Shown: one piece after another, positions 1,452 to 35,361 of the stretch
How positions within the stretch are numbered: the first letter of the stretch is position 1
Layout: each line of letters opens with the position of its first letter
Origin: Dechloromonas agitata is5
GTDB taxonomy: Bacteria > Pseudomonadota > Gammaproteobacteria > Burkholderiales > Rhodocyclaceae
Assembly (NCBI RefSeq): GCF_000519045.1
Contig: NZ_KI912532.1
Span: 1,984,001-2,048,000 of the forward strand
DNA: 64,000 bases
Direction: 5' to 3'
Translations under genes and position numbers: made by a program
The notes under the pieces: generated by a model
Databases searched by the model: none
Told to the model about the DNA's origin: nothing
What the model saw: the letters and a program-made list of their open reading frames with translations, nothing else

Positions 1452-3227
1452 TCAGCCCTTGTGCAGCTTGAAGACCCAGACGGAACCACCCTGTTCCAGG
1501 TAGTTCACGCGCTTGGCCACGTCGCCGCCCCAGAGCGGCACGGCGCCGCCCCAGCCGGTGGTGACGGCGATCATCTGCTCGCCGTCCTGTTCCCAGGTGA
1601 CCGGCGGTGCGACGATGCCGGTGCCGGTCTGGAAGGACCACAGTTCCTTGCCGGTCTTGGCGTCGACGCCCTTCAGGTAGCCTTCCGGGGTGCCGTAGAA
1701 GATCAGGCCGCCGGCGGTGGTCAGGACGCCACCCCAGAGCGGGGCGTAGTTCTTGTTTTCCCAGACGATCTTGCCGCTGACCGGATCAACGGCGCGCAGC
1801 ACGCCGATGTAATCGTCGTTCAGCGCCTTGATGGTGAAGCCGGCGCCGAGGTAGGCAGCGCCCTTCTTGTAGGCGATCGGTTCGTTCCAGATATCCATCG
1901 CCCACTCGTTGGCCGGTACGTAGAAGAGGCCGGTCTGCGGGCTGTAGGCGATCTGTTGCTGGTTCTTGCCGCCGAGGAAGGACGGGGCGGAGAAGACGAC
2001 CTTGCCCTTCTTGCCGTCGGCGGTTTCCGACGGATCACCCGGCCGGCCATCCGGCGTGTAGAGCGGGCGGCCGGTGTTCATGTCGTAGCCGGTGGCCCAG
2101 GTGATCTTGTTCACGAAGGGGAAGGCGTTGAGCAGCTTGCCGTTGGTCCGGTCGTTCACGAAGAAGAAACCGTTGCGGTCGGCCTTGCCGCCGGCCTTGA
2201 TCAGCTTGCCCGTCTTCGGGTCCTTGTAGTCGAAGGAAACGAATTCGTTCACACCGTCGAAGTCCCAGCCGTCGTGCGGGGTGTTCTGGTAGTGCCAGAC
2301 GATCTTGCCGGTGTCGGCGTCGATGGCCACGGTGGAGGACGAGAACAGGTTGTCGCCCGGACGCAGGTGGCTGTTCCACGGGGCCGGGTTGCCGGTGCCG
2401 GCGAAGATCAGGTTGGTTTCCGGATCGTAGGTGGCGCCGTTCCAGGTGGCGGCGCCGCCGGTCTTCCACAGGTCGCCGGTCCAGGTCGCGTTGAGGGTGC
2501 CGGAGATGCCGTTCTCGACCTTCTCCCCATCCTTCATGATGTAGCCCATGTGGCCTTCGACCGTCGGCCGGGTCCAGATCAGCTTGCCGGTCTTCGGGTC
2601 GCGCGCATCGATGCGCCCGACGACACCGAATTCACCGCCGGAAACGCCGGTGATCAGCTTGCCGCGGGCGATGATCGGGGCGGCGGTGGCCGAGTAGCCG
2701 GCGGCGTAGTCATCCAGCTTTTCCTTCCAGACGACCTTGCCGGTGTCCTGGTTGAGGGCGACCAGCTGGGCGTCCAGCGTGGCGAAGATGACCAGGTTGT
2801 CGTACAGCGCCGCGCCGCGGTTGATCACGTCGCAGCAGGGCATGATGCCGTCCGGCAGGCGGTGCTCATACTTCCACAGCTTCTTGCCGGTCTTTGCGTC
2901 CATCGCGAACAGGCGGCTGTAGGAGGCGGTGACGAACATCTTGCCGTTGTGGATGACCGGCTGCGATTCCTGGCCGCGCTGCTTCTCGCCGCCGAAGGAC
3001 ATCGACCAGGCAGGCACCAGGTTCTTCACCGTCTTGGTGTTGATCTGGGTGCTCGGGCTGAAGCGCTGGCCCTGGGTGCCGAGGCCGAAACTGACGACGT
3101 CGCCCTTGGTCTTGGCATCGTTCAGGATGTCCTCGTCGGTGACGACGGCGGATGCCTGGCCGGCGGTCAGCAGGGCTGCCGCAAGCAGGGCGATCGTGCT
3201 CCGCTTGAAGGGGGTGTGACTGTGCAT
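1452..3227 (-). CDS. PQQ-dependent alcohol dehydrogenase, lanthanide type (XoxF/ExaF/PedH-like)
   Basis: This 591-residue periplasmic quinoprotein should oxidise alcohols (methanol, ethanol or others) using PQQ and pass electrons to a cytochrome c. It has a Sec signal peptide ending near ASA (residue 27), the vicinal Cys pair CC at 131-132, repeated tryptophan-docking blades (for example [15 protein letters not shown]), Glu199 in GGEFGVVG, Asn280 in GTGNPAPWN and catalytic Asp322 in GWDFDG. The extra Asp324, two residues on, is the hallmark of lanthanide-dependent enzymes; calcium enzymes usually have Ala or Ser there. The ATG at 3227 is chosen because it starts the signal peptide and follows AAGGAGACA; an upstream in-frame ATG gives an implausible leader. 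The gene stands alone, diverges from the relay/TonB operon and has its own sigma-54-like promoter. No cytochrome c gene lies nearby. Confidence 0.93.
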
Positions 3228-3357
3228 GGATTGTCTCCTTGGTTTATCCAATTGGTTCCGGCCGGCCGGGGTGTTGGTCGTTGCCCGGCTGTCCGGTGAA
3301 ACCTGCTGGCGCGCCGCCTTCCTTTCCCTGAATCGGCGCACTGGCGGAGGGAGTGTT

Positions 3358-3373
3358 CGCAAGGCTTGTGCCA
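3358..3373 (-). promoter_or_regulatory. Sigma-54 (-24/-12) promoter for the quinoprotein dehydrogenase
   Basis: The minus strand reads TGGCACAAGCCTTGCG, matching the consensus TGGCAC-N5-TTGC with the GG and GC doublets exactly 12 positions apart. It would start transcription near 3346, leaving a leader of about 120 nt before the ATG at 3227. Confidence 0.75.
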
Positions 3374-3585
3374 AGCCGCCGTGGAATGCGCCGTTGCCCG
3401 ATTGGCGCGGCGAAGCGCCCGATCACCGGGTTTTTCGGGGTGCGCCGCTGTCACACAAGGCGCTGTATCAAATGTCACCAGCTGCTCCAAAGTTGCACAG
3501 CAGCGTTAAGGCGACGCCATGACGATGCCGTGTGCCAAAGGCGAAATGGCCGTCTGGCGGGCGATTGGCGGATTTGGCCAGGGAT

Positions 3586-3601
3586 TGGCACGGGGTTTGC
3601 G
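3586..3601 (+). promoter_or_regulatory. Sigma-54 (-24/-12) promoter for the SoxYZ-MBL-TonB operon
   Basis: The plus strand reads TGGCACGGGGTTTGCG, a full match to TGGCAC-N5-TTGC with correct GG-to-GC spacing. The expected start is near 3613, about 36 nt before the ATG of the SoxYZ-like gene. The mirrored site on the other strand supports both. Confidence 0.8.
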
Positions 3602-3648
3602 ACCGTCTCGCCAAACAGCCCACAGGGCGAAACGGAGCGAGACAACAC

Positions 3649-4419
3649 ATGAAGTATCCCTTGACCATTGCCGCCATCGCGCTGGCGGCCCTGATGCCGC
3701 CGGCCGAGGCCGCCGCGCTGAAAGAGAACGGCGATCCGCTGGATTCCGCACGCTGGGGCGAGATGGCCAAGACCTTCCTCGCTGGCGCGCCGGTGCTGTT
3801 CGATCCGCGCGTCAAGGTGATCGCCCCGTCGACGGCCGAGAACCCGATGCAGGTGCCGGTGACGGTCGATGCCACGGCCCTGCCGGGTATTGTCGAGGTC
3901 GTCGTCTTTGCCGACTTCAACCCCATCGTGCAGGTGCTGCGATTCTTCCCGGAGGGGGCCCCGGCCTACCTCGGCTTTCGCGTCAAGCTGCAGCAGTCGA
4001 CGCCGGTGCGCGCCGCGGTGCGGACCGGCGATGGCGTCTGGCATGTCGGCGGCACCTGGGTGAATACCGTGGGCGGCGGCTGTACCGCGCCGTCGGCCGC
4101 CGCCGCCTCGCCGGAATGGCAGAAGCGCCTCAATGAAGTGAGCGGTCGCCAGTGGTCGGAAGGCCCCAACGCTGGCCGCGTCCGCCTGCGCATCGTGCAC
4201 CCGATGGACACCGGCCTGATCGCCGGCACGCCGGCCTTCCATATCGAGGAAATCAACTTCACCGACGCCGCCGGCAAGCGCCTGATGCGCGTGCAGACCT
4301 ACGAGCCGGTCAGCGAGAACCCGGTGTTCACGCTCAATCGTGGCGTCGTCGATGGCCCGTTGGAGGCCAGTGGGCGCGACAACAACGGCAACCTGTTCAA
4401 GGCGAGGATCGCGCCGTGA
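3649..4419 (+). CDS. Quinoprotein dehydrogenase-associated SoxYZ-like carrier protein
   Basis: This 256-residue exported protein has a Sec signal peptide (cleaved near AEA, residue 21), an N-terminal SoxY-like sandwich and a C-terminal SoxZ-like domain in one chain. In Sox sulfur oxidation, SoxY carries substrates on a Cys in a C-terminal GGCGG arm. Here the corresponding motif is internal: VNTVGGGC, with Cys145 exposed between the two halves. Fused SoxYZ proteins of this kind are known from genome surveys to accompany PQQ dehydrogenases and a zinc hydrolase as a putative quinoprotein relay; their chemistry is not established. The start at 3649 opens the signal peptide; longer starts do not. 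Its stop overlaps the next gene's GTG (GTGA). No other sox gene is nearby, so a role outside thiosulfate oxidation is likely. Confidence 0.85.
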   Translation: MKYPLTIAAIALAALMPPAEAAALKENGDPLDSARWGEMAKTFLAGAPVLFDPRVKVIAPSTAENPMQVPVTVDATALPGIVEVVVFADFNPIVQVLRFFPEGAPAYLGFRVKLQQSTPVRAAVRTGDGVWHVGGTWVNTVGGGCTAPSAAAASPEWQKRLNEVSGRQWSEGPNAGRVRLRIVHPMDTGLIAGTPAFHIEEINFTDAAGKRLMRVQTYEPVSENPVFTLNRGVVDGPLEASGRDNNGNLFKARIAP

Positions 4420-5351
4420 AACGCCTGTTCGCCAGTTTGCTGCTGCTCGCCTGCGGTCAACTCGCCGCGCAGGACTTCGACTATCGCCTGAGCGCCACCC
4501 CGGTCGCCCGCGACGTCTATGCCTTCATCGGCAAGACCGAGGATTTCGACACTGTCAATGGCGGCAACATCGTCAACACCGCCTTCATCGTCGCGCCGCA
4601 GGGCGTCATCGTCATCGACAGCGGCCCGTCGCTGCGCTACGGCCAGCAGATGCGCCAGGCCATCGGCCGGGTCACCGACAAGCCCGTGGCGCTGGTCATC
4701 AACACCCATCACCATCCCGATCACTTCCTGGGCAACCAGGCCTATGCCGACGTGCCCATCGGTGCGCTGGCCGACACCCGCCTGGGCATTACCAGCGACG
4801 GCAACGCCTTCGCCGAAAACCTGTTCCGGATGAGCGGCGACTGGATGAAAGGCACCGAGGTGCAGGCGCCAACACGCACGCTGCAAGCCGGCGAGCTGGA
4901 GGTGGCCGGCCGCAAGCTGCGCCTGATCGCCCTCGACGGCCACACCGGTGCCGACCTGGTGGTGCTCGACGTGGTCAGCGGCGTGCTGTTCGCCGGCGAC
5001 CTGGCCTTCAACGGCCGCGCCCCGACCACGCCGCATGCCGACGTGGCGCACTGGCTGGCCGCCCTCGACCGCCTCGAAGCGCTGACCCGCGATAGCGGCT
5101 TCACCGCCCTGGTTCCCGGCCACGGCGCGGTGACCCGCGATGCCGCGCCGCTACGCCAGACCCGCGCCTGGCTGAACTGGCTGACGCAGACCCTGCGCGA
5201 TGCCGCCCGCGACGGCCTGGACATGAACGACCTGCTGGCCCGCCCGCTGCCGCCGCAATTCGCCGAGCTGCCGGTGGCCGCCAGCGAATATCGCCGTTCG
5301 GTCGGCCACCTCTTCCCGGCCGCCGAGCAGGCCGCGCTGGAGGGCAAGTAA
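4416..5351 (+). CDS. Quinoprotein relay system zinc metallohydrolase (MBL fold)
   Basis: This 311-residue periplasmic metallo-beta-lactamase-fold protein has a signal peptide (KRLFASLLLLACGQLAAQ), the metal motif THHHPDH at residues 97-103, a later GHTGAD histidine, GDLAFNGR and the distal VPGHG histidine. These are the usual two-zinc ligands. It belongs to the SoxH-like branch found with PQQ enzymes and SoxYZ-like carriers; the likely role is hydrolysis of a thioester or another adduct on the carrier Cys, which is inference. The GTG start at 4416 overlaps the preceding stop by four bases, so translation is probably coupled. The gene's TAA shares its last base with the ATG of the TonB gene. 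Confidence 0.88.
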   Translation: MKRLFASLLLLACGQLAAQDFDYRLSATPVARDVYAFIGKTEDFDTVNGGNIVNTAFIVAPQGVIVIDSGPSLRYGQQMRQAIGRVTDKPVALVINTHHHPDHFLGNQAYADVPIGALADTRLGITSDGNAFAENLFRMSGDWMKGTEVQAPTRTLQAGELEVAGRKLRLIALDGHTGADLVVLDVVSGVLFAGDLAFNGRAPTTPHADVAHWLAALDRLEALTRDSGFTALVPGHGAVTRDAAPLRQTRAWLNWLTQTLRDAARDGLDMNDLLARPLPPQFAELPVAASEYRRSVGHLFPAAEQAALEGK

Positions 5352-6097
5352 TGAGCGCCGCCGTGCTCCACGACACCCTGCCGGTCCGGGTGGTGGATCG
5401 GCGTTTCTGGGCGCTGATCGGCCTGTCCCTCCTGTTCCACGGTGCCCTGTTCGCCGGCATGGCCTGGCAGCGCAAGGCACTGCCGGTACCGCTGCCGACG
5501 CTGATGGCGACCCTCCGCCTGATCGCTCCGAGCGAAGCCAATCCCGAACCGCGACCCGTTGCCGCCAGCGCCCCGGCGCCTGCCGCAGCGGTTCCCCCGA
5601 AGGCCCGGCAGCAAGTCGCCGCAGCGGAGCAACGGACTGCTCCGCGCGTCACGCAGCCTGCCGGGCCGGCCAATGTGCCGGCCCAGACCCGCGCCCCGGC
5701 TGTCGTTGCCGAGGCCGCGCCCCAGACTGTGCCGGCGGTTGCTGCCACAGCGTCGGTCGCACCGGCCGAGGCCGCCCCCCCGGTCCGGCCGCAGGGTGAC
5801 GTCCTCGCCGCCTATCGCCAGCACCTCACCGAATTGTTCGCCCGCGGCTACGAATATCCGCGCATCGCCGCCCTGCGTGGCTGGGAGGGTGAAGTCCGCC
5901 TGCGCCTCAAGGTCGCCCGGCGCGGCAACCTGCTCGGCATCGCGCTCGATCGCTCCAGCGGCTTCGATGTGCTCGACCAGCACGCCCAGTCGCTGCTCGC
6001 CAGCTACGGCGATCTGCCGCCGCTGCCCGAGGCGCTGGAAGCCAGTGAAATCCAGGTCATCGTCCCGATCAACTACAAACTCAGAAAAACGACATGA
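5351..6097 (+). CDS. TonB family energy transducer dedicated to the quinoprotein operon
   Basis: This 248-residue protein has the TonB layout: a short cytoplasmic N-terminus, one membrane anchor (WALIGLSLLFHGALFAGM, with the TonB His near residue 30), a long Pro/Ala-rich periplasmic spacer (about residues 60-155) and a C-terminal TonB domain containing YPRIAALRGWEGEVRLRLKV, where the usual YP and GxV(x)3 motifs are visible. It would carry proton-motive energy from ExbB/ExbD to an outer-membrane receptor. The receptor gene follows directly with a 4-bp overlap, so this copy probably serves that receptor. No exbBD lies beside it; the only exbBD in the window is at the far right end. Confidence 0.9.
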   Translation: MSAAVLHDTLPVRVVDRRFWALIGLSLLFHGALFAGMAWQRKALPVPLPTLMATLRLIAPSEANPEPRPVAASAPAPAAAVPPKARQQVAAAEQRTAPRVTQPAGPANVPAQTRAPAVVAEAAPQTVPAVAATASVAPAEAAPPVRPQGDVLAAYRQHLTELFARGYEYPRIAALRGWEGEVRLRLKVARRGNLLGIALDRSSGFDVLDQHAQSLLASYGDLPPLPEALEASEIQVIVPINYKLRKTT

Positions 6098-8400
6098 AGA
6101 GACAAAGCCCCCAACGCACCCTGCTGGCCCTTGCCATCGCCGCCGCTTTCGCGCCGGCCCACGCCGAGCCCATCGTCACCACCGCCACCGTCGAAGTGGT
6201 CGGCACCACGCCGCTGGCCGGGGTTGGCGTGCCGCGCCTGCACCTGCCGGCCAACGTCGTGTCGCTCGACGACCAGCGCCTAGAGGAAATCGAGAGCCTC
6301 AACATCGCCGAACAGTTGCTGCGCCAGGCACCGGCCGTCACGGTCAATGAAACCCAGGGCAATCCTTACCAGGCCGACCTCAACTACCGCGGCTTCACCG
6401 CCTCGCCGCTGCTTGGCACGGCCCAGGGGCTGTCGATCTACGTCGATGGCGTGCGGGTGAACGAGCCCTTCGGCGATACGGTGAATTGGGATCTGATTCC
6501 GCATTCGGCCATTGCCGGCATCGACCTTGTCCCCGGCTCCAACCCGGCCTTCGGCCTCAACACCCTGGGCGGTGCACTGGCCATCCGCACCAAGAGCGGT
6601 TTTTCGCATCCGGGCGGCAAGCTCGAACTGTCCGGCGGCAGCTTCGGGCGCAGCAACACCGAACTGGAATACGGCGGCAACAACGGCACGCTCGGCTGGT
6701 ACGTGGCCGGCGACTGGTTCCGCGAGGATGGCTGGCGTGATTATTCGCCGTCCGACGTCAAGCAGTTCTTCGGCAAGCTGTCCTTTCGCAATAGTGCCGG
6801 CGAGGCCGACCTGACGCTGACCCAGGCCCGCACCCGCCTGATCGGCAACGGGCTGTTGCCCCAATCGATGGCCAGCGAGCGCCGCGAAGCGATCTTCACC
6901 CGCCCCGACCAGACGCGTAACGACCTGACCCAGCTCGCCCTCAACGGCAAGCTGTGGCTGGGCGACAGCCAGAGCCTGAGCGGCACCGTCTATGTCCGCA
7001 AGACGCGCACCCGGACGCTGAACGGCGACATGAACGACGATTACGAGAACGACTGGGCGAGCGATCCGACCACCCCGAGCGGTGCCCACAACCGGACGCA
7101 GACCCGCCAGGTCGGCACCGGCGCCGCCGTGCAGTGGAACCTGACCAGCCAGGCCCACCAGCTGGCGGTCGGCGCTTCCTGGGACCAGGCCCGCATGCGC
7201 TTCGTGCAGACCCAGCAGCTCGGTTCGCTGAACGACTCGCGCGGCATCGACAACCTGCGCGATGTCGAGGAAGAAAACCGCCTGTGGGGCACCACCCGCA
7301 CGGCCAGCCTGTTCGCCACCGATACCTGGTCGATCACCCCGGCCCTGCACCTGACCGCCTCGGCCCGCTACAACATGAGTCGGGTGACGACGCACGACGA
7401 ACTGACCCTCACCGCGCCGAACCTCGATGGCGACCACAGCTACCGCAAGCTCAACCCGGCCCTCGGCCTGAGCTGGCAAGTGCTGCCGACGCTCAACGCC
7501 TACGCCGGTTTCAGCCAGGGCAACCGTATCCCGACGCCGATCGAACTCGGCTGCGCCGACCCGGCCAACCCGTGTACCCTGCCCAACTCGATGGCCGCCG
7601 ACCCCTACCTGAAGCAAGTGGTATCGCGCACCCTGGAGGCCGGCCTGCGCGGCACCCTGGCCGGCAACACCCAGTGGAACGCCGGCGTCTATCGCACCTT
7701 GAACACCGACGACATCCTGTTCGTCGGCACCTCGACCAGCGCCGGTTATTTCACCAACTTCGGCAAGACACAGCGCCAGGGCTTCGAACTCGGCCTCAAC
7801 GGCAAGCTGAGCGGCATCGACTGGTTCGCCAGCTACAACTGGCTGCACGCCACCTTCCGTTCCGACGCCTGCCTGCTCGCCGAAAACAACAGCACGCGCG
7901 GCACGGCGGCCGAATGCACCGGGGCCGGCCAGGACGACGAGATACTCGTCAAAAAGGGCAACCGCCTGCCCGGCCTGCCGGAGCACAGCGTCAAGCTCGG
8001 CCTGGCCTGGCGGGCGACCAGCTGGCTGCGCCTGGGCGGCGACGTGCAGGCCTTTTCCAGCCAGTACGTGCGCGGCAACGAGAACAACCAGCACCAGAGC
8101 GGCACTACCACCGATGCGCTGGGCAATGTGCGCACCTTCGAGGGACCGGGCAAGATCGGCGGCTACGCCATCCTCAACCTGAACGCCGAGGCGAAGCTGG
8201 GCGGCGGCTGGCAGATGTTCGCCAAGGTCAATAACGTCTTCGACCGCCGGTACGCCACGGCCGGCGCGCTGGCCGAAAGCCCCTTCGTCGGCGGCAGCTT
8301 CCAGGCCGATCCGGACGACTGGCGGCGGCAGACTTTCGTCGCGCCCGGCGCGCCCCGTGCGGCCTGGGTCGGCGTCCGCTACGTCTTCGGCGGCAAGTGA
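6094..8400 (+). CDS. TonB-dependent outer-membrane receptor of the quinoprotein operon
   Basis: This 768-residue receptor has a signal peptide (cleaved after AHA, residue 24), a TonB-box-like segment (VEVVGTT), a plug domain (QAPAVTVNETQGNP, VDGVRVNEPFGDT, LGGALAIRT) and a beta-barrel ending in YVFGGK. It resembles the broad CirA/FecA-like receptor family; the substrate cannot be read from sequence. Lying between a dedicated TonB and a sensor kinase, in an operon divergent from a lanthanide-type dehydrogenase, it could import a lanthanide chelate, as lanthanide receptors do in methylotrophs. That is inference. The ATG overlaps the tonB stop (ATGA). Confidence 0.9.
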   Translation: MKRQSPQRTLLALAIAAAFAPAHAEPIVTTATVEVVGTTPLAGVGVPRLHLPANVVSLDDQRLEEIESLNIAEQLLRQAPAVTVNETQGNPYQADLNYRGFTASPLLGTAQGLSIYVDGVRVNEPFGDTVNWDLIPHSAIAGIDLVPGSNPAFGLNTLGGALAIRTKSGFSHPGGKLELSGGSFGRSNTELEYGGNNGTLGWYVAGDWFREDGWRDYSPSDVKQFFGKLSFRNSAGEADLTLTQARTRLIGNGLLPQSMASERREAIFTRPDQTRNDLTQLALNGKLWLGDSQSLSGTVYVRKTRTRTLNGDMNDDYENDWASDPTTPSGAHNRTQTRQVGTGAAVQWNLTSQAHQLAVGASWDQARMRFVQTQQLGSLNDSRGIDNLRDVEEENRLWGTTRTASLFATDTWSITPALHLTASARYNMSRVTTHDELTLTAPNLDGDHSYRKLNPALGLSWQVLPTLNAYAGFSQGNRIPTPIELGCADPANPCTLPNSMAADPYLKQVVSRTLEAGLRGTLAGNTQWNAGVYRTLNTDDILFVGTSTSAGYFTNFGKTQRQGFELGLNGKLSGIDWFASYNWLHATFRSDACLLAENNSTRGTAAECTGAGQDDEILVKKGNRLPGLPEHSVKLGLAWRATSWLRLGGDVQAFSSQYVRGNENNQHQSGTTTDALGNVRTFEGPGKIGGYAILNLNAEAKLGGGWQMFAKVNNVFDRRYATAGALAESPFVGGSFQADPDDWRRQTFVAPGAPRAAWVGVRYVFGGK

Positions 8401-9779
8401 GCATGCAGCAGCCATTCGCCCTGCCTGACGCCAGCCTGCACACGCGGGTCGGCCTGGTCCTCACCGGACTGGCCGCCTGCCTGCTGCTGGTCCTTGGCGG
8501 CTTGTGGCTGCATGCGACGCGCAATGCCGTGCATGAGGAAGTCGAGGCTGCGACGCGGGTTTCCGGGCAATGGCTCAAGGTCATGCTCGGCCAGTTGCAG
8601 GCCCTGCCCGAAGCCGAGCGCGGTGAGCGCTTGCTCGCCATGACGGCCAGCATCGGCCGGGTGCGCGCCAATGTGCTGGAGGTGCGCGATGCCGCCGGCC
8701 AGCTGCGCTATGTGTCGCCGCCGTCGCCGTACAAGGCCGGGCGGACGGCGCCGGCCTGGTTCGCCGCGCTGCTGGCCAGCGACCTGCCGGGCAGCCGCCT
8801 GCCGTTCGCCGGCTACGAACTGAGCCTGCATCCCGACCCCTCGCGCGCCGTGCTCGACGCCTGGGATGAACTGCTCGGCCTGGCCGGCTGGGCCTTGCTG
8901 CTGCTCATTGGCCTGTTCGCCGCCACCCGGCGCGCCCTGGCGCGTGCTTTGCGCCCGCTCAACCAGGTCATGCAGGCGCTCGACCGCACCGGCATGGGCC
9001 GTTTCGACACCCGCCTGCCGCGTTTCGCCTCGCCGGAACTGGGTCGCCTGTCGCGTGCCTTCAATGGCATGGCCGACCGCTTGAAAGCAGCGGTGGACGA
9101 CAACGTCCGGCTGGAAACCGCCAAGGAGGTGGCCGAACAGATGCAGGCCCGGGTCGAAGCCGAGCGCCGGGCCGAACGCGAGGGCATCGCCCGCGAACTG
9201 CACGACGAACTGGCGCAGGGCGTCACGGCGGTGCGCGCACTGGCCGGCGCCATCGTCCAGCGCACCACCGAACAGCCGGCCCTGCACAGCCACGCGCAGA
9301 GCATCGTCGCGGTGACTGGCGAGATGCAGGACGGCGTGCGCCGCATCCTGCATCGCCTGCGTACCGGGCAAAGCCTGGTCGCGCGGCTGGAGAGCACGCT
9401 CGACGCCTGGCGCCGGCAGCATCCGATTCAGCTGACCAGCCGTATCGCCCTGACGGGCGAGGCTTTTGACGATGAGGTGGCACAGTGTGTGCTCCGTACC
9501 GTGCAGGAAGGGCTGACCAACATCGTTCGCCACGCCGATGCCAGCCGGGTCGATCTGACACTGCTCCAGAATGGAGCAACTGTGCAAATCCGGCTCGCCG
9601 ACAACGGCCGCGGCCTCGATGGCAGGCCTTCGGGACAGGCCGGGTGCGGCCTCGGCCTGCAGGGCATGCGCGAACGGATCGCGCTGCTCGGCGGCCAACT
9701 CGAATTCGCCACGCCGGCGGGCGGGGGCTTCGTGCTCCAGGCCTGCCTGCCGGTGGCACAGGGGAGGGTAGAAGCATGA
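8397..9779 (+). CDS. NarL/UhpB-type membrane sensor histidine kinase
   Basis: This 460-residue kinase has two membrane segments (about residues 18-40 and 165-183) around a periplasmic sensor of roughly 120 residues, a HAMP segment (LRPLNQVMQALDRTGMGRFD), a coiled coil, a HisKA_3 box with the phospho-accepting His in REGIARELHDELAQG, and an HATPase domain with N, G1 and G2 motifs (EGLTNIVRHA, DNGRGLDG, GCGLGLQGMRERI). The GTG at 8397 overlaps the receptor stop (GTGA); an ATG at 8403 is the alternative. The next gene is its cognate regulator. A role in sensing a metal or substrate and controlling the locus is likely; P. putida PedS2/PedR2, which governs a lanthanide switch, is a functional parallel, not a claimed orthologue. 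Confidence 0.9.
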   Translation: MSMQQPFALPDASLHTRVGLVLTGLAACLLLVLGGLWLHATRNAVHEEVEAATRVSGQWLKVMLGQLQALPEAERGERLLAMTASIGRVRANVLEVRDAAGQLRYVSPPSPYKAGRTAPAWFAALLASDLPGSRLPFAGYELSLHPDPSRAVLDAWDELLGLAGWALLLLIGLFAATRRALARALRPLNQVMQALDRTGMGRFDTRLPRFASPELGRLSRAFNGMADRLKAAVDDNVRLETAKEVAEQMQARVEAERRAEREGIARELHDELAQGVTAVRALAGAIVQRTTEQPALHSHAQSIVAVTGEMQDGVRRILHRLRTGQSLVARLESTLDAWRRQHPIQLTSRIALTGEAFDDEVAQCVLRTVQEGLTNIVRHADASRVDLTLLQNGATVQIRLADNGRGLDGRPSGQAGCGLGLQGMRERIALLGGQLEFATPAGGGFVLQACLPVAQGRVEA

Positions 9780-10417
9780 AACTGAACGGAGTCCGCGTCC
9801 TGCTCGCCGACGACCACGCCATGGTCCGCCTCGGCTTTCGCCTGCTGCTCGAAGGGGCCGGCGCCAGCGTGATCGGCGAGGCCGATTGCGGCGAGAGCGC
9901 CGTCCGCCTGTACGCCGAATCGAATCCGGATGTCGTCGTGATGGATGTCTCGATGCCCGGCGTCGGCGGCCTGGCGGCGCTTGAACGGCTGCTCGTCTGG
10001 GAGGCCCGGGCGCGTGTGCTGATGCTTTCGGCCCACCACGACGACATCGTGCCGGTGCGCGCCCTCAAGCTCGGCGCCCGCGGTTATTTGTGCAAGCGGG
10101 CGGCGCCGGAGGAATTTCTGCGTGCCGTCGGCGAAGTGGCGCGCGACCGCCGCTACCTCGACCCGGAACTCGCCCAGGCCGTCGCCCTGGCCCAGCTCTC
10201 GGGCTCGGCCAACCCGGTCGAATCGTTGACCGAGAAGGAACTGGCCGTCTTCCTCAAGCTCGCCGAGGGCCGTTCGGTGAACGAGGTGGCGAGCGATTTC
10301 TGCCTCAGCCCGAGCACCGTCGGCACCCACCTCTATCACATCAAGCAAAAGCTCAATGTGCAGAACGCAGCCGAACTGACGCTGGTCGCCGTGCGCAACG
10401 GCCTGATCGAATCGTGA
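9776..10417 (+). CDS. LuxR/NarL-family response regulator
   Basis: The 213-residue protein has an N-terminal receiver (acidic pair in LLADDH, phospho-acceptor Asp in VVVMDVSMPG, Lys in YLCKRAAP) and a C-terminal LuxR helix-turn-helix (LTEKELAVFLKLAEG, then SPSTVGTHLYHIKQKL). Its start overlaps the kinase stop by four bases, making a two-component pair. NarL-type regulators act with sigma-70, so this protein would not by itself activate the sigma-54 promoters upstream; a separate enhancer-binding protein is required, or the pair controls other promoters. Confidence 0.92.
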   Translation: MKLNGVRVLLADDHAMVRLGFRLLLEGAGASVIGEADCGESAVRLYAESNPDVVVMDVSMPGVGGLAALERLLVWEARARVLMLSAHHDDIVPVRALKLGARGYLCKRAAPEEFLRAVGEVARDRRYLDPELAQAVALAQLSGSANPVESLTEKELAVFLKLAEGRSVNEVASDFCLSPSTVGTHLYHIKQKLNVQNAAELTLVAVRNGLIES

Positions 10418-10427
10418 CCGCCAGCCG

Positions 10428-11375
10428 ATGACCGGCGACCCGCTATTCCCCGACGTGCAGCCCCGCTGCGCACGCCGTATCGCGGTCGGTGACGGGCATT
10501 ATCTCTACGTCGAGGAAATCGGCCCGGCCGATGGGCTGCCCGTTCTCTTCCTGCACGGCGGGCCGGGCAGCGGCTGCACGCCGGGGCAGCGCCGGCTGTT
10601 CGATCCGCAGCGCTTCCGCACCATCCTCGTCGACCAGCGCGGCGCCGGGCGCAGCCTGCCGCTCGGCGACCTGCACGACAACACCACGGCCGACCTGATC
10701 GCCGACCTCGACTTGCTGCGCGAGGCGCTCGGCATCCCGGCCTGGATCGTCTTCGGCGGCTCCTGGGGCAGCCTGCTCGCCCTGGCCTATGCGCAGATCT
10801 ACCCGGAAAACATCCTCGGCCTCGTGCTGCGTGGCATCTTCCTCGGCTCCCGGCGCGAGATCGCCGCCTACGTGCAGGGCAATGGCGAGGCGCCGAGCCC
10901 GGCCTGGCTGGCCTTCGCCGCCACCCTGCCGGCCGGGGAACAGAGCGACCTGCTTGCCGCGACCGCCCGCCGCGTCCTGCGCGGCACGCCGAGCGTTGCC
11001 CGGTGTGCCGCCCGCGCCTGGCTTGATTACGAACGCGCCCTGCTCGGCGAGGCGCCGCTCGGGCACGACCCCGATGCCTGCCAACTGGCCAAGGTGCGCA
11101 TCCAGATGCACTACCTGACGCGCGACTGCTTCCTGATGCCCGGCCAATTGCTGGCCGGTGTCGAGCGCCTGCGCCACCTGCCGGCGGCCATCGTGCAAGG
11201 CCTGGCCGATCCGGTCTGTCCGCCGCAGGCCGCCGAAGCCCTGCATCGCGCCTGGCCGGAAGCCACCTGGTTCCCGGTCGCCCAGGCCGGCCATGCCGGT
11301 TTGTCGCCGCCCATCGCCCGCGCCTGCATCAAGGCGCTCGGCTGGGTGGCGGAATGCGTCGAGACGGTAGGCTAG
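10428..11375 (+). CDS. pip: Prolyl aminopeptidase (proline iminopeptidase)
   Basis: This 315-residue alpha/beta hydrolase has the oxyanion motif HGGPGSG, DQRGAGRS, the nucleophile elbow GGSWGS, an Asp in QGLADPVCPP and His in AGHAGL. It would remove N-terminal proline from peptides in the cytoplasm. It starts 10 bp after the response regulator, so it probably belongs to the same transcript; whether that is functional or incidental is unclear. Its TAG stop shares the palindrome CTAG with the stop of the convergent MocR gene. Confidence 0.9.
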   Translation: MTGDPLFPDVQPRCARRIAVGDGHYLYVEEIGPADGLPVLFLHGGPGSGCTPGQRRLFDPQRFRTILVDQRGAGRSLPLGDLHDNTTADLIADLDLLREALGIPAWIVFGGSWGSLLALAYAQIYPENILGLVLRGIFLGSRREIAAYVQGNGEAPSPAWLAFAATLPAGEQSDLLAATARRVLRGTPSVARCAARAWLDYERALLGEAPLGHDPDACQLAKVRIQMHYLTRDCFLMPGQLLAGVERLRHLPAAIVQGLADPVCPPQAAEALHRAWPEATWFPVAQAGHAGLSPPIARACIKALGWVAECVETVG

Positions 11376-18043: not shown

Positions 18044-18225
18044 GCGGCGGGGGCGAAGGCGAAAGCCGGATTTTCGCCGCTTTCCGGGGCCTTGTGTGCA
18101 GCCGGGCGCCGTTGGCGAGGTAGCCTCCTGAAAATCGCTAGCCCCGGTTCCCGATTCCATGGTCGCCCGCCCGCAGCCGGGGGGCAACAATCGGTCATCA
18201 CATCGCTTACGTCGAAAGGTTGGCC

Positions 18226-19371
18226 ATGCCCAAGGAAGATCGCGGATTGAGCCTGGACGGCCAGGGGATTCCTCTCTGGTTGTCGCTGGAGCTGACTTAC
18301 CGTTGCCCGCTGAAGTGCTCGTGGTGCAATAACCCGCTCGATTTCGAGGATTACGGCAGCCAGGAGCTGAGCACCGCCGAGTGGAAGAAGGTACTCGACG
18401 ATGCCCGCCGGCTTGGCGCGCTGCAGCTTGGGTTCACCGGCGGCGAGCCGATGCTGCGCGACGATCTGGAGGAGCTGGTCGGCCACGCCGACCGCATCGG
18501 CTTCTACACCAACCTGATCACCTCCGGCATCGGCCTGACCGAGGAACGCCTGCTGGCCCTCAAGGCGGCCGGCCTCAAGCATATCCAGCTGTCGGTGCAG
18601 GCTTCGCGGGCCGAGCTGACCGACGCGCTGGTCGGCGCCCGGGCCCATGCCGGCAAGATGGAAGCGGCGCGGCTGATCAAGAAGCACGGTTTCCCGATGG
18701 TGCTCAACGTGCCGGTCTTCAAGCAGAACATCGGCGAGATCGATGCGATGATCGCCTGGGCGGCCGGGATGGGCATCGAGTACATCGAATTCGCCAACAT
18801 CCAGTACTACAACTGGGCGCTGATGAACCGCGACGAGCTGATGCCGACGCTGGCCCAGGTCCGCGAGGCGGAAGCCGTGGTGAACCGCTGGCGCGAGAAG
18901 CTGGGCAACACGATGACCATCTATTTCGTCATCCCCGATTACTACGAAGGCCGCCCCAAGGCCTGCATGAACGGCTGGGGCGCCATCCACCTGACCGTGG
19001 CGCCGGACGGCGTGGCCATGCCCTGCCAGGAGGCACGGGTGATTCCTGGCCTGCAGTTCGATTCGGTACGCGAAAAGCCGCTGGACTGGATCTGGCACGA
19101 GTCGTCGCTCTTCCGCAAATACCGCGGCCTGGACTGGCTGCCCGAGCCCTGCAGTTCGTGTTCGGAAAAGGAAAAGGACTTCGGCGGCTGCCGCTGCCAG
19201 GCCTTCCTGCTCACCGGTGACGCCAGCAACACCGACCCGGCCTGCAGCCGTTCGCCGCACCACGGCGTGGTCCAGCAGGCGGTGGCCGTGCGCGAGCAGA
19301 CAATGCGCTTCCAGAAACCGTTGATCAAGCGCTCGGCGCAGGCGGTGTGCACCGATTTCATGGCGGGCTGA
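18226..19371 (+). CDS. pqqE: PqqE, PqqA peptide cyclase (radical SAM)
   Basis: The 381-residue enzyme cross-links Glu and Tyr of PqqA in the first committed step of PQQ synthesis. It has the radical-SAM cluster motif CPLKCSWC (Cys27, 31, 34), GFTGGEPML, and a C-terminal SPASM region with the Cys series MPCQEA, EPCSSCSEKEKDFGGCRCQ. GAAAGG precedes the ATG at 18226; a TTG six bases earlier is less likely. It is separated by 4 kb from the other pqq genes and heads an operon with four overlapping accessory genes. Confidence 0.96.
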   Translation: MPKEDRGLSLDGQGIPLWLSLELTYRCPLKCSWCNNPLDFEDYGSQELSTAEWKKVLDDARRLGALQLGFTGGEPMLRDDLEELVGHADRIGFYTNLITSGIGLTEERLLALKAAGLKHIQLSVQASRAELTDALVGARAHAGKMEAARLIKKHGFPMVLNVPVFKQNIGEIDAMIAWAAGMGIEYIEFANIQYYNWALMNRDELMPTLAQVREAEAVVNRWREKLGNTMTIYFVIPDYYEGRPKACMNGWGAIHLTVAPDGVAMPCQEARVIPGLQFDSVREKPLDWIWHESSLFRKYRGLDWLPEPCSSCSEKEKDFGGCRCQAFLLTGDASNTDPACSRSPHHGVVQQAVAVREQTMRFQKPLIKRSAQAVCTDFMAG

Positions 19372-23404: not shown

Positions 23405-23614
23405 CGGCTCCTTCCTCATCCTGAAAAGAGCAGACAAGCGGCAATCTTCATGCCAACGGCCTATCCCCGAAAAACCGTCGGCCTGGCAGCCGGGGTGTGA
23501 AAAAAGGGGACAGTCGCTGCTGCAGAACAGCACGCATGCGGGCCATGAAAATCATGAGGTGTCTTTGGCGCTTTCCCGCATGCCGGCCCCCAAACCGGCG
23601 TGCAGACTGGGGGC

Positions 23615-24550
23615 ATGAAAATACTCGTTCTCGGTTCTGCCGCCGGTGGCGGCTTCCCGCAGTGGAACTGCAACTGCCGCAATTGCGCCGGTGTGCGCGA
23701 TGGCAGCGTGCGGGCCCTGCCGCGTACCCAGTCCTCGATCGCGGTCAGCGCCGATGGCGTCGACTGGGTTCTGTTCAACGCCTCGCCCGATATCCTGAGC
23801 CAGATCCGCGCCCAGCCGGCGCTGCAGCCGGGACGGGCCTTGCGCGATACCGGCATCGTCGGCGTCGTGCTGATGGATGCGCAGATCGACCATACCACCG
23901 GCCTCTTCATGCTGCGCGAGGGGCGGCCGCTCGATGTGTGGTGCACGCCGCAGGTGCAGGAAGACCTCACCACCGGCAATCCGATCTTCAACGTGCTGGA
24001 ACACTTCTGCACCGTGAACTGGCAGCCGGTCGACGTCAGCCCCGGCCAGCCTTGCCCGAGTTTCGTCGTGCCACGGACCCCGGGCCTGCGCTTTACGCCG
24101 GTGCCGCTGAGCAGCAAGGCGCCGCCGTATTCGCCGCACCGCGAAAACCCGCATCCGGGCGACAACCTGGGCATGCTGATCGAGGACGTGGCGACCGGCT
24201 ACCGGGTTTTCTACGCGCCGGGTTTCGGCGCCATGGAGCCGCATCTCGAAACCTTCCTGGCCGATTCCGACTGCGTGATGCTGGATGGCACGTTCTGGAC
24301 CGATACCGAAATGATCGACCTCGGCATCGCCCCCAAGACGGCGCGCTCCATCGGCCACCTGCCGCAATCCGGGCCGGGCGGCATGATCGAATTGCTGGCT
24401 GGCTACCCCAGGCCGCGCAAGATCCTCATCCACATCAACAACACCAATCCGATCCTCGACGAGGACTCGCCGCAACGTGCCGAACTGGGCGCCGCCGGCA
24501 TCGAACTGGCCTGGGACGGCATGGTGATCACCAACGGAGACAAGCAATGA
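23615..24550 (+). CDS. pqqB: PqqB, PQQ biosynthesis metallo-hydroxylase
   Basis: The 311-residue protein is an MBL-fold PqqB: N-terminal [19 protein letters not shown], the NxSPDI segment ([11 protein letters not shown]), QIDHTTG, and [16 protein letters not shown]. PqqB hydroxylates the PqqA-derived Glu-Tyr intermediate. I use the ATG at 23615, right at the conserved N-terminus, instead of the GTG at 23600. It overlaps pqqC by four bases. Confidence 0.96.
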
Positions 24551-25302
24551 ACATGAACGAACTGCCACCGTGGAGCGCCGAAGAGTTCGAATCCCGCCTG
24601 CGGGCGATGGGCACCAGCTACCACATCCACCACCCCTACCAGGTGATGATGAAGGAGGGCAAGGCAACGCGCGCCCAGATCCAGGCCTGGGTCGCCAACC
24701 GCTACTACTACCAGATCAACATCCCGATCAAGGATGCTGCGATCATGGCCAACTGTCCGGAGCGCGAAGTGCGCCGCCACTGGGTGCAGCGCATTCTCGA
24801 TCACGACGGCTTTGCCGGCGAGGCAGGCGGCATCGAGGCCTGGATTCGCCTCGGCGAAGCGGTCGGCCTGAGCCGCGAGGACATCATCGCGCAGCGCCAC
24901 GTGCTGCCCGGCGTGCGCTTTGCCGTCGACGCCTACGTCAATTTCGCCCGCCAGCGCCCCTGGCAGGAGGCTGCCGCCGCCTCGCTGACCGAGCTGTTCG
25001 CACCGACCATCCACCAGTCCCGGCTCGACAACTGGCCGAGCCATTACCCGTGGATCGAAGCGGCCGGCTATGACTACTTCCGCCGCCGCCTGAACGAAGC
25101 GCCGCGCGACGTGGTGCACGGCCTGCGCATCACCCTCGGCCATTTCACGACGCGGGAGCAGCAGGCGCGGGTGATCGACATCCTGCAGATGAAGCTCGAC
25201 ATCCTGTGGAGCATGCTCGACGCCATGCTGCTCGCCCACTGCCCGGTACAGATCGAAGGCTGGGGCGCCTACCGGCCGATGGCGCCGGTCTATCCGCGCT
25301 GA
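24547..25302 (+). CDS. pqqC: PqqC, pyrroloquinoline-quinone synthase
   Basis: The 251-residue enzyme carries out the last ring closure and oxygen-dependent oxidation of PQQ. It shows the heme-oxygenase-like all-helical pattern with [44 protein letters not shown] and DYFRRRL, all typical of PqqC. The start overlaps the pqqB stop (ATGA). Confidence 0.96.
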
Positions 25303-25437
25303 ACCCTGGCCCTGGCGCCGGCCTCCAGAAAATCTTGAGGGGCTTTTGGCGAATGCCCGGGCGCCAGCCGGCCAGCGAATAGCCAAGATGACACACAGGT
25401 GCCGCAGGGTGCGGCGCCCTAATCAAGGAGACATACG
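25303..25437 (+). promoter_or_regulatory. Intergenic leader upstream of pqqA
   Basis: This 135-bp gap between pqqC and pqqA probably carries a separate promoter, because PqqA peptide is needed in excess over the enzymes. I see no strong -35/-10 pair and no -24/-12 match. A good ribosome binding site (AAGGAGA, near 25425) precedes the pqqA ATG. Confidence 0.4.
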
Positions 25438-25512
25438 ATGAACTGGCAAACCCCGGCTTACTGCGAAATCCGCCTCGGCTTCGAAGTAACCGCCTACGTC
25501 TACGTTCGCTGA
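25438..25512 (+). CDS. pqqA: PqqA, PQQ precursor peptide
   Basis: A 24-codon frame encodes the peptide that is converted into PQQ. It has the core EVTAYVYVR with Glu16 and Tyr20, the two residues joined by PqqE, and the usual W and P near the N-terminus. It lies after pqqC and before pqqD, a changed order compared with the common pqqABCDE. Confidence 0.95.
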   Translation: MNWQTPAYCEIRLGFEVTAYVYVR

Positions 25513-25521
25513 ACGAGCCCC

Positions 25522-25551
25522 GGAGCGGTCGCCGGCAACGGCAGCCGCTCC
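25522..25551 (+). terminator. Attenuator-like hairpin between pqqA and pqqD
   Basis: A 7-bp stem (GGAGCGG with CCGCTCC) lies right after the pqqA stop with no T-run. Such a hairpin would stabilise the pqqA message or cut read-through, giving more PqqA than PqqD. Confidence 0.5.
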
Positions 25552-25563
25552 CTCTGACCGAGC

Positions 25564-25845
25564 ATGGCAACCATGAATCCATCCGACCGCCCGCGCCTCA
25601 GCCCGCACTACCTCTTCCGCTACGAAGCCAGCCAGCAGGCACACATCCTGTTGTACCCGGAGGGCCTCATCAAGCTCAACCCGGCCGCGGCCGAAATTCT
25701 GCAGCGCTGCGACGGCGAGCGGACAACCGACGACATCATCGCCGACCTAGACGCCGCCTTCCCCGGCAATCGCACGGCCATCGCCCAGGACACCCGCGCC
25801 TTCCTCGCCGCCGCCTGCGACAAGGGCTGGTTGCGCGTCACCTGA
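25564..25845 (+). CDS. pqqD: PqqD, PqqA peptide chaperone
   Basis: This 93-residue protein binds PqqA and presents it to PqqE. It has RPRLSPHYLFRYEASQQAHILLYPEGLIKLN and ILQRCDGERTTDDIIADL, the conserved PqqD segments. It follows pqqA by 51 bp. It is not fused to PqqC or PqqE. Confidence 0.95.
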   Translation: MATMNPSDRPRLSPHYLFRYEASQQAHILLYPEGLIKLNPAAAEILQRCDGERTTDDIIADLDAAFPGNRTAIAQDTRAFLAAACDKGWLRVT

Positions 25846-32918: not shown

Positions 32919-32936
32919 CGACGCAGCAGGCGGCAT

Positions 32937-33195
32937 AGGGAGGGCGATGGTTATTGTTGGTTGTCGCAGGTCGGCCAGCCCGGGGCTGGGAATGGCGTCG
33001 AACGCTGTCCGGGCGATCGATGCCTTTCATCATACTCCGCAAATTTGTCAAATGTCCGCCTGCCAAGGCGTTTGGCATTCCCTCATGATTTTCTGTAGGC
33101 GAGTTGGGCGATAGTCTGGAAGCAGCCGGGGGCGGGCTTCCGAATAATCCCTCCTGGGGCAAGTCCGCTTGCCGATAAAAAAACAGGAGACAACC
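32937..33195. other. Divergent intergenic region, no gene seen
   Basis: The gap between the hybrid kinase and the TonB receptor contains two hairpins (GGAAGC with GCTTCC near 33117-33140, and GGCAAG-TCCG-CTTGCC near 33160-33175) in the presumed leader of the receptor gene. I see no B12 box, Fur site or good sigma-70 promoter. A leader-RNA element is possible but unproven. Confidence 0.4.
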
Positions 33196-35361
33196 ATGCA
33201 AACCCGCTTTTCCTCCCCACTTCCCGCTCATCTCGCCCGCCCGGGCCGCCTGGCCATCCTGCTTGCCGCCGCCTTCGCCGGCGGGGCGCAGGCTGAAACC
33301 ACCGTCAGCCTCGACAGCATCGTCGTCACCGGCAGCCGCGTCGAGCACAACACCTTCGACCTGCCGGCCGCCATCGACGTCGTCGACGCCAGTCGTATCG
33401 GCGCCGACCAGGCCAGGGTCAACGCCTCGGAGGCCCTGGCCTCTGTGCCTGGCATCACCGTCCAGAACCGTCAGAACTATGCGCAGGACCTGCAGATTTC
33501 CTCGCGCGGTTTCGGCGCCCGCTCGGCCTTCGGCGTGCGCGGCATCCGCCTGATCAGCGACGGCATTCCGGCCTCGATGCCGGACGGTCAGGGGCAGGCA
33601 GCCACCTTCAACCTCGACCGCGCCGAGCGCATCGAAGTCATGCGTGGCCCGCTGTCGGCGATTTACGGCAATCACGCCGGGGGCGTGATCCAGCTGTTTA
33701 CGCCGGACGGCAAGGGCGCGCCGAGTGTCGAGGCCAACTTCGCGGCTGGCAGCTACGGCACCTGGAAAACCGACCTCAGCGCCCAGGGTGAAGTGGGCGG
33801 CGTCGGCTACGTGATCGACGCCTCGCGTTTCGCCACCGACGGCTACCGCGAGCGGAGCGCCGCCGAGCGCGACCAGGCGATGGTCAAGCTGACCTACCGG
33901 CCAAGCCAGGACGGTAAGCTGACTTTCATCGCCAACACCTTCCGCCAGGATGCGCAGGACCCGCAGGGGCTGCAGTGGAGCGAGTTCAAGAGCAATCCGC
34001 GCGGTGTGGCCTGGGATGCGACACGCGGCAACTATCCGGCCATCGCCTACGACACGCGCAAGAGCATTGACCATACCCAGGGCGGCGTCAGCTACGAGCA
34101 TCGCTTTGGCGATCACAGCGTGCTGCTCTCGGCCTACGCTGGCCAGCGTTCGACGACGCAGTACCAGTCGATTCCGGTCGGTGCGCAGACCGGCTCCACA
34201 CGTCATTCCGGCGGCGTGATCGATTTCGACCGTGACTTCGCCGGAGTGTCGGGCCGGTGGACCGGCCGTTTCGGCCTGGCCGGCGGCCGCCTGACGACGA
34301 CGCTCGGTTTCGACTACGAGCAGGCCACGGATGATCGCCAGGGCTACGAAAACTTTGTCGGCAGCGGCACGCCGGCCAATTGCGTGGCCAATACCTGTGG
34401 CGTCATGGGGCGCCTGCGCCGCAACGAGGAAGACCGTGTCGCCAGCTTCGACCAGTACGCCCAGGCCGAATGGCAGGGCGAGCGCTGGGCCTTCACGGGC
34501 GGCCTGCGCCACAGCCGCGTCGCCTTCAAGGTCGATGATCGCTACCTGAGCAACGGTGACGACAGCGGCCGAGTTGCCTACGAAAAGACGACGCCGACCC
34601 TTGCCGCCCTGTACCGGGTGACCGACGCACTCAACCTCTACGCCAGTGTCGCCCGCGGCTTCGAAGCGCCGACCTTCAACGAAATGTTCTACTCGAGCAA
34701 CGGCGGTTCCTTCAACCTGTCGCTCAAGCCGGCGACCAGCACGCATTACGAGGTCGGCGCCAAGGCCATGCTTGGTGCCCGCAGCCGGCTCGATGTCGCG
34801 CTGTTCGAGATCAGGACGCAGGACGAACTGGTCGTCCTGTCCAGTACCGGCGGCCGCACCGCCTACCAGAACGCCGGCAAGACGGAGCGCCAGGGCATGG
34901 AGGTCGCGGTGGACAGCCGCTGGGGCGAGCGACTGAGCAGTCGCCTGGCCTACACTTGGCTGGATGCGACCTATGCCGAGGCGTTTACCACCTCCTCCGG
35001 CACTGTCAATGCCGGCAACCGCCTGCCCGGCGTCGCCGCCCACAACCTGTTCGGCGAGATCGCCTGGCGGCACCAACCGAGCGGCTTCCACGCCGCGGTC
35101 GAGGGCATCGTCCGGGACAAGGTCCATGTCGAAGACAGCAACCAGAAACAGGCAGCCCCCGGTTACGCCATCGCCAACCTGCGCCTCGGCATCGACCGCC
35201 GTTACGGCCCGCTCAATCTGCGCGGCTTTGTCCGTCTCGACAACGTCTTCGACCGCCAGTATGTCGGGTCGGTCATCGTCGGCGACAGCAACAACCGCTT
35301 CTACGAGTCCGCTCCCGGCCGCAACTGGCTGGCCGGCGTCAGTGCCCGCTATACATTCTGA
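33196..35361 (+). CDS. TonB-dependent receptor, substrate unknown
   Basis: The 721-residue receptor has a signal peptide (cleaved after AQA, about residue 33), a TonB-box-like SLDSIVVTGSR, a plug (VPGITVQNRQNYAQD, SRGFGARSAFGVRGIRLISDGIPASMPDGQGQ) and a 22-strand-type barrel ending in ARYTF. The plug segment resembles the FecA/PfeA-like group and receptors for unknown siderophores. It starts after AGGAGA at 33184. No Fur box was found upstream, so iron control is not supported by sequence. Confidence 0.9.
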   Translation: MQTRFSSPLPAHLARPGRLAILLAAAFAGGAQAETTVSLDSIVVTGSRVEHNTFDLPAAIDVVDASRIGADQARVNASEALASVPGITVQNRQNYAQDLQISSRGFGARSAFGVRGIRLISDGIPASMPDGQGQAATFNLDRAERIEVMRGPLSAIYGNHAGGVIQLFTPDGKGAPSVEANFAAGSYGTWKTDLSAQGEVGGVGYVIDASRFATDGYRERSAAERDQAMVKLTYRPSQDGKLTFIANTFRQDAQDPQGLQWSEFKSNPRGVAWDATRGNYPAIAYDTRKSIDHTQGGVSYEHRFGDHSVLLSAYAGQRSTTQYQSIPVGAQTGSTRHSGGVIDFDRDFAGVSGRWTGRFGLAGGRLTTTLGFDYEQATDDRQGYENFVGSGTPANCVANTCGVMGRLRRNEEDRVASFDQYAQAEWQGERWAFTGGLRHSRVAFKVDDRYLSNGDDSGRVAYEKTTPTLAALYRVTDALNLYASVARGFEAPTFNEMFYSSNGGSFNLSLKPATSTHYEVGAKAMLGARSRLDVALFEIRTQDELVVLSSTGGRTAYQNAGKTERQGMEVAVDSRWGERLSSRLAYTWLDATYAEAFTTSSGTVNAGNRLPGVAAHNLFGEIAWRHQPSGFHAAVEGIVRDKVHVEDSNQKQAAPGYAIANLRLGIDRRYGPLNLRGFVRLDNVFDRQYVGSVIVGDSNNRFYESAPGRNWLAGVSARYTF

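Follow-up and report, generated by a model that had tools for sequence, protein, structure and literature searches.

Why should genes for an outer-membrane receptor, a TonB protein and a two-component system share an operon with the SoxYZ-hydrolase relay of a quinoprotein? This question is raised by a stretch of 64,000 nucleotides from Dechloromonas agitata is5 (Rhodocyclaceae; assembly GCF_000519045.1, contig NZ_KI912532.1, positions 1,984,001 to 2,048,000), hereafter called the window, in a genome of one contig and 3.63 megabases. We consider it likely that the locus is of the ped type, devoted to alcohol oxidation with lanthanide and pyrroloquinoline quinone (PQQ), and that outer-membrane supply and sensing genes of its own were added to its relay operon. 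The receptor, TonB and sensor genes probably supply the adjoining dehydrogenase. Profile searches used NCBIfam with its curated cut-offs, and Pfam for domains; the genes are given below, with overlaps to the preceding gene in base pairs (bp).

1452..3227, minus strand: PQQ-dependent alcohol dehydrogenase of the lanthanide (DxD) type, PedH-like (TIGR03075, 779.1 bits, cut-off 480.05)
3649..4419, plus strand: fused SoxYZ-like carrier (TIGR04557, 213.6 bits, cut-off 140)
4416..5351, plus strand: quinoprotein relay zinc metallohydrolase 1 (TIGR04558, 422.5 bits, cut-off 300; overlap 4 bp, GTGA)
5351..6097, plus strand: TonB (TIGR01352 and PF03544 over cut-off; C-terminus 45.9 bits, cut-off 27.1; overlap 1 bp, TAATG)
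6094..8400, plus strand: LutH-like TonB-dependent receptor (Pfam plug and barrel; tree; model with a predicted local distance difference test score of 84.6; overlap 4 bp, ATGA)
8397..9779, plus strand: histidine kinase with periplasmic sensor, HAMP and HisKA_3 (Pfam, alignment and model, membrane helices by eye; overlap 4 bp)
9776..10417, plus strand: NarL/GacA-type response regulator (PF00072, PF00196; overlap 4 bp)
10428..11375, plus strand: prolyl-aminopeptidase-like hydrolase (TIGR01249, 260.3 bits, barely above the cut-off of 259.75)

A preliminary description of this DNA had counted seven chained genes, six of them joined by overlaps. The gene set and the overlaps stood, and the count was corrected: six genes (SoxYZ, hydrolase, TonB, receptor, kinase and regulator) are linked by five overlaps of 4, 1, 4, 4 and 4 bp, and the peptidase gene starts after a gap of 10 bp behind the regulator. 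The kinase start was taken as the GTG at 8397, an ATG at 8403 also being possible. Overlaps recur in relatives, where L093, L095-L100 and L121 permit five overlaps of 4 bp, as read by a script that chose the in-frame start nearest to a 4-bp overlap and hence favours overlaps. The peptidase is a possible member of the module, because one relative (L175, genome G399) has a peptidase together with TonB, kinase and regulator. This locus carries two tandem receptors of the operon-receptor clade and, on the opposite strand, the order TonB, peptidase, kinase, regulator.

The divergent gene was rightly described as a dehydrogenase of the lanthanide type. Its start was placed at the ATG at 3227 because a signal peptide fits there, and its best match in the PDB is the quinoprotein ethanol dehydrogenase 6zcv, which we take to be PedH (881 bits, and 713.5 for 1flg). 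Its motif HDGWDFDG holds a second aspartate two residues past the catalytic one (DxD), which in PQQ alcohol dehydrogenases marks lanthanide use, and this alcohol-oxidising enzyme probably needs a rare-earth metal. The dehydrogenase gene is adjoined at 539-1204 by a gene for a protein of 221 amino acids with weak domain matches below cut-off, found in one relative only among the loci scanned (L022, the same DNA as L093).

The link of the relay to a quinoprotein gene was also confirmed, the SoxYZ-hydrolase pair sitting with the DxD enzyme. Both genes exceed the curated cut-offs of the quinoprotein relay families TIGR04557 and TIGR04558, with the PQQ dehydrogenase adjoining; the GGGC motif of the carrier and the zinc motif of the hydrolase are each present in the window and in 16/16 orthologs tested. 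The descriptions consulted for the two families name no receptor, TonB or kinase, all of which the operon has. In a class-wide sample of 40 SoxYZ stretches (drawn from 46 stop-free rows over the cut-off besides our own, the remaining six being left out), 16 of the 17 dehydrogenases above 200 bits were DxD and one was DxS, four weaker matches being excluded.

A DxS dehydrogenase is encoded at 1980693-1982531 of the contig, 1.5 kilobases (kb) ahead of the window; similarly, the operon of relatives adjoins a DxD enzyme, with a DxS enzyme a few kb away where the stretch extends far enough, often accompanied by another kinase-regulator pair. The upstream stretch (L173) encodes an ExaC-type aldehyde dehydrogenase (946.8 bits, cut-off 900), a pentapeptide-repeat protein, a PedF-like cytochrome (105.2, under the cut-off of 122) and a beta-propeller protein (216.1, under 287.3). 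Ped-type components, namely DxD and DxS dehydrogenases, SoxYZ, hydrolase, a two-component pair and the ExaC-type enzyme, thus lie within about 30 kb, the PedF-like cytochrome remaining below its cut-off, and by predicted gene content the locus with its upstream stretch may form a ped-like cluster.

In Pseudomonas putida KT2440, the pedH gene has SoxYZ (PP_2677) and a zinc hydrolase (PP_2678) as neighbours, and its cluster also includes the lanthanide-responsive PedS2/PedR2 system (PMC12997753, available extract). The likeness covers a PedH-type enzyme beside SoxYZ and hydrolase, a Ca-type dehydrogenase, a two-component system and an aldehyde dehydrogenase. P. putida is given in the same extract as devoid of a LutH homolog, whereas the relay operon of our locus includes a receptor gene along with TonB and a second two-component system, and has sigma-54-like promoters. 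Two points are left open for P. putida in that extract: how lanthanides cross the outer membrane, and what the SoxYZ-hydrolase relay does (PMC12997753). Since the pedH neighbourhood of SoxYZ, hydrolase and PedS2/PedR2 is known, novelty is limited to the operon's receptor, TonB and second two-component system.

Precedents exist for lanthanide receptors: LutH has this role in Methylorubrum extorquens (PMC7391723, in part), and both LutH-like and LanA receptors have been described (PMC12482762, in part). In our tree, a split with a support of 1.000 puts the operon receptor with a lanmodulin-linked receptor of Methylobacterium nodulans and with sphingomonad receptors, and separates it from FhuA, FepA, BtuB, FecA and PqqU of Escherichia coli as well as from PqqU orthologs; branching within the operon-receptor clade is partly unresolved. 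On a plasmid of M. nodulans the order is receptor, regulator, lanmodulin, the last located with a lanmodulin sequence query, and this receptor is 33% identical to that of the operon. The sphingomonad receptors of the clade have hydrolase-SoxYZ as neighbours and a DxD PQQ dehydrogenase nearby, in another arrangement than the operon. Not all relatives share such neighbours, as no PQQ dehydrogenase is annotated around those of Caballeronia and Methylocalor. The operon receptor is called LutH-like here by its place in the clade of the M. nodulans receptor, the lanmodulin-linked reference in the comparison; it differs from LutH and LanA in being co-operonic with TonB, kinase and relay. A search of its sequence against solved structures gave no match. 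Other relatives of the receptor occur on Ideonella and Variovorax plasmids (L242, L243) near genes for FAD:protein FMN transferase, with methanobactin-related genes also nearby in Ideonella, and pqqCDE and ABC genes in Variovorax.

The gene order is not unique to this genome, as a search for it in other genomes made clear. Among 35 same-genus genomes besides our own, 16 carry a receptor that is at least about 65% identical (partial or in pieces in two cases), and a 17th holds a 37-residue end piece; of the 13 neighbourhoods read, 12 have the full order SoxYZ, hydrolase, TonB, receptor, kinase, regulator, with the peptidase directly after the regulator in 9/13. A second set, the 80 named loci that rank best among 586 confirmed stretches and are hence biased to close relatives, holds 12 loci with all six genes in order, four of which duplicate same-genus DNA. 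At least five of these named loci are the same DNA as other stretches (L093=L022, L096=L024, L097=L026, L103=L029, L139=L038), so that the two sets share DNA and are not additive. Within the same 80, two Denitromonas loci gave no TonB match, and three Rhodocyclaceae loci have TonB, receptor, kinase and regulator without the relay. In the class-wide sample, neither the full order nor TonB was found (0/40 each; the TonB models were built from genus genes and a distant TonB could escape), the hydrolase occurs in 16/40, and receptor-type matches were limited to 2/40, one clipped by the end of the stretch and one weak. From these counts, the order characterises a lineage: it is not peculiar to one genome, nor is it found everywhere.

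The same survey bears on the suggestion that relay and receptor-kinase genes are independent modules, brought into one operon for dosage only and with no joint function. Indeed, TonB, receptor, kinase and regulator occur without SoxYZ and hydrolase in L106, L108, L110 and L032, and SoxYZ occurs without the receptor in 38 of the 40 class-wide stretches. We nevertheless hold such independence to be very improbable: sphingomonads also put the receptor beside hydrolase and SoxYZ, in another arrangement, and L129, which has SoxYZ and hydrolase, carries PqqU in place of the receptor.

Conservation extends to the region between the two divergent genes, whose elements are as follows.

3228..3648: divergent promoter region of 421 bp, bounded by the start codons of the two genes
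3359..3373, minus strand: sigma-54 -24/-12 match TGGCACAAGCCTTGC towards the dehydrogenase, present in 12/14 intergenic regions, window included
3479..3499, plus strand: conserved central element CAGCTGCTCCAAAGTTGCACA, possible activator site, conserved in relatives
3586..3600, plus strand: sigma-54 -24/-12 match TGGCACGGGGTTTGC towards the operon, present in 11/14 intergenic regions, window included

Sigma-54 promoters follow the consensus TGGCAC-N5-TTGC at -24/-12. The strict pattern TGGCACN5TTGC has only two matches in the 64-kb window, both in the divergent region and one facing each way, and the two sites occur together in 9/14 regions, window included, the L121 region being short. Their pattern is that of sigma-54 promoters, which they are predicted to be. 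Near the starts of DxS enzymes strict matches were found in 2/10 cases. The central element CAGCTGCTCCAAAGTTGCACA has one copy in the genome at two mismatches or fewer and one more at three, a reversed control pattern giving two matches, and this single copy at up to two mismatches ruled it out as a regulon marker. No sigma-54 activator was found for the divergent region. The word "self-contained", applied earlier to the system, is thus too strong: the promoters appear to depend on sigma-54 and hence on an activator, none of the seven operon genes is exbB or exbD, and the genome as a whole has six TonB C-termini over cut-off and six ExbB/MotA-type matches.

At a wider scale, receptor and dehydrogenase were compared across 300 genomes of the order, low-completeness ones kept in, with matches taken at set E-values (receptor, E <= 1e-100; PQQ dehydrogenase, E <= 1e-70; XoxF-like, E <= 1e-180) and PedH-like calls picked by hand from rows of at least 70% identity. 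The receptor was found in 51 genomes, a PQQ dehydrogenase in 70, XoxF-like enzymes in 34, PedH-like enzymes in 21 and PqqU in 91. A PQQ dehydrogenase was matched in 48/51 receptor carriers vs. 22/249 other genomes (p 1e-34). Among the 48, XoxF/PedH-like calls cover 34 and a DxD enzyme was read in each of the other 14; the 22 dehydrogenase carriers without receptor comprise 11 with such calls, seven with DxD and four with DxT only. With calls and motif reads combined, motifs having been read only in genomes without a XoxF/PedH call, lanthanide-type enzymes are present in 48/48 vs. 18/22 (p 0.008). Of the three receptor carriers without a dehydrogenase match, two have XoxF by targeted search, and in the third the receptor and pqqC are 3.7 kb apart. 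Some genomes with split receptor matches, such as G036 and G053 (46% and 40% identity), fell below the limit and were counted as lacking the receptor. The link of the receptor to lanthanide-type enzymes that had been supposed is supported, both by its lanthanide-receptor-like clade and by the way it tracks PQQ dehydrogenases, mostly of the lanthanide type.

These data also speak to whether a generic iron-siderophore receptor and its TonB might lie beside the dehydrogenase by chance. The best NCBIfam match of the receptor is the siderophore-receptor model TIGR01783 (132.6 bits, under the cut-off of 223.5), and the fold of TonB receptors is generic. A chance neighbour is nonetheless highly unlikely in view of the 48/51 association with PQQ dehydrogenases, the placement in the tree, the conserved order and the common divergent promoter region.

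The receptor would carry a lanthanide, and the kinase would sense a ligand. Between two membrane helices (placed by eye), the latter has a conserved segment of some 120 residues on the periplasmic side, with invariant acidic and basic residues that an alignment also finds in two related loci, L118 (from a Sulfuritalea metagenome-assembled genome) and L129. The invariant arginine or lysine would suit an anionic ligand, and the acidic residues a metal. A fold search with the kinase returned, among the 50 matches listed, hits to kinase parts and none to the sensor domain; a LapD/MoxY-type sensor was discarded for want of a Pfam match at E 0.05. In trees, the operon pair is sister to the kinases and regulators of L118, L129 and L175. 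The pair was not retained as a PedS2/PedR2 ortholog, its clade differing from that of the pairs beside DxS enzymes with which it was compared.

Several observations weigh against a lanthanide-supply operon. Cargo, sensing and regulation are predictions from sequence and model. Within the genus, L032 has the genes from TonB to peptidase in order and no SoxYZ or hydrolase match in the 2.1 kb from TonB to the contig end, the operon of L037 is devoid of the receptor, a paralog of 48% identity lying beside the DxS enzyme, and the genome of L039, a stretch that begins at TonB, has its closest receptor (46-49%) beside a DxS enzyme. The order-wide figures are plain counts that ignore relatedness, and XoxF/PedH calls alone give 34/48 vs. 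11/22, which is not significant (p 0.11). Eighteen genomes have lanthanide-type enzymes without a receptor at E <= 1e-100, so the receptor is not essential. The M. nodulans lanmodulin query found no match at E <= 1 across the window and the preceding 36 kb, a further difference from LutH and LanA. The sensor type of the operon kinase is common to operons that carry PqqU instead, and the AlphaFold model of the receptor retrieved the PqqU-PQQ complex as best fold (E 9.8e-49), before siderophore receptors (1.7e-41).

The last two points raise the alternative that the receptor imports PQQ or metal-loaded PQQ rather than a lanthanide or lanthanophore. The window encodes PQQ biosynthesis and uptake genes outside the operon.

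18220..19371, plus strand: pqqE (TIGR02109, 490 bits, over cut-off)
23600..25845, plus strand: pqqB, pqqC, pqqD (TIGR02108, TIGR02111, TIGR03859, over cut-off)
33169..35361, plus strand: PqqU ortholog, PQQ receptor (NF041535, 661.2 bits, under the cut-off of 1200)

PqqU, as described in the available part of PMC12124388, resembles the operon receptor as a TonB receptor tied to quinoproteins and as its nearest solved fold. Its slot is also suggestive: L118 has, on the minus strand, TonB, kinase, regulator, PqqU and dehydrogenase, and L129 has kinase, regulator, PqqU, SoxYZ, hydrolase and dehydrogenase, both PqqU keeping the signature residues. Further points for PQQ as cargo are the invariant R302 and R383 of the receptor, which fall 2 and 1 residues off the PqqU R304 and R365 columns, and its distance of 3.7-20.4 kb from pqqC in 13 hand-picked genomes of the 43 with both. 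On the contrary, the receptor is only 22.8% identical to E. coli PqqU, scores 111.4 bits with NF041535 and, in two alignments, has 0/3 signature residues (aromatic 99, Arg 304, Arg 365), with L and no aromatic at 99, T at 304 and S or F at 365. The same genome encodes a separate PqqU that bears the signature (PMC12124388 for the residues, in part), with 10/11 PQQ-contact columns identical to those of E. coli PqqU and Phe for Tyr99, about 25 kb beyond the operon. Moreover, most receptor carriers produce PQQ (43/51 have pqqC), unlike the PqqU carriers (35/91), of which 43/91 have neither pqqC nor a dehydrogenase found. Identity with PqqU was accordingly rejected as first choice, given the missing signature and the separate PqqU, and kept as a rival for the fold match; PQQ as the cargo is in our estimate unlikely, if deserving of attention.

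PqqU also lies downstream of the operon in 9/13 same-genus regions. Elsewhere it is found within about 4.5 kb of an operon-type receptor, mostly convergent (G575, G337, G590, G560, G372, G377, G530, G480, G600). In the window, PqqU is adjoined by a gene for a hemerythrin-PAS-GAF hybrid histidine kinase of 1150 amino acids (29484-32936), and some 4 kb separate pqqE from the downstream pqqB-pqqC-pqqD genes, a DUF6976 gene lying between them on the opposite strand.

Because the related operons L118 and L129 carry PqqU, the receptor slot can hold a PQQ importer, which fits a role in cofactor supply. A broader version would make the locus a cofactor circuit with an exchangeable slot, LutH-like here and PqqU in Sulfuritalea-like relatives, in which one kinase type senses PQQ or the lanthanide-PQQ state of the quinoprotein and the TonB-receptor-kinase set imports and monitors the ready metal-cofactor pair; we regard this as quite improbable.

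Returning to the ped-type locus with its own lanthanide supply and sensing, the parts could work together as follows. A sigma-54 activator would switch on the dehydrogenase and the operon together. With ExbB/ExbD encoded elsewhere, TonB would drive import of a lanthanide or its chelate through the receptor, and in the periplasm the dehydrogenase would take up the lanthanide together with PQQ. The SoxYZ carrier, through its cysteine arm, and the zinc hydrolase may serve maturation of the enzyme or protect PQQ. Finally, the kinase would read a periplasmic ligand, and the regulator would tune supply or the choice between Ca-type and lanthanide-type enzymes.

The earlier remark that no description of this combination was known agrees with our search, as none was found among the matches listed in the open-licence PMC literature; PMC10199937, one of these matches, proved unrelated in its available part. 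The parts are known separately and the package seems undescribed. How lanthanides enter through the outer membrane of non-methylotrophic bacteria is an open question. With a LutH-like receptor, TonB, a kinase and the relay in one operon, both lanthanide entry and the role of the relay become testable by single deletions in isolates of the Azonexus/Dechloromonas group.

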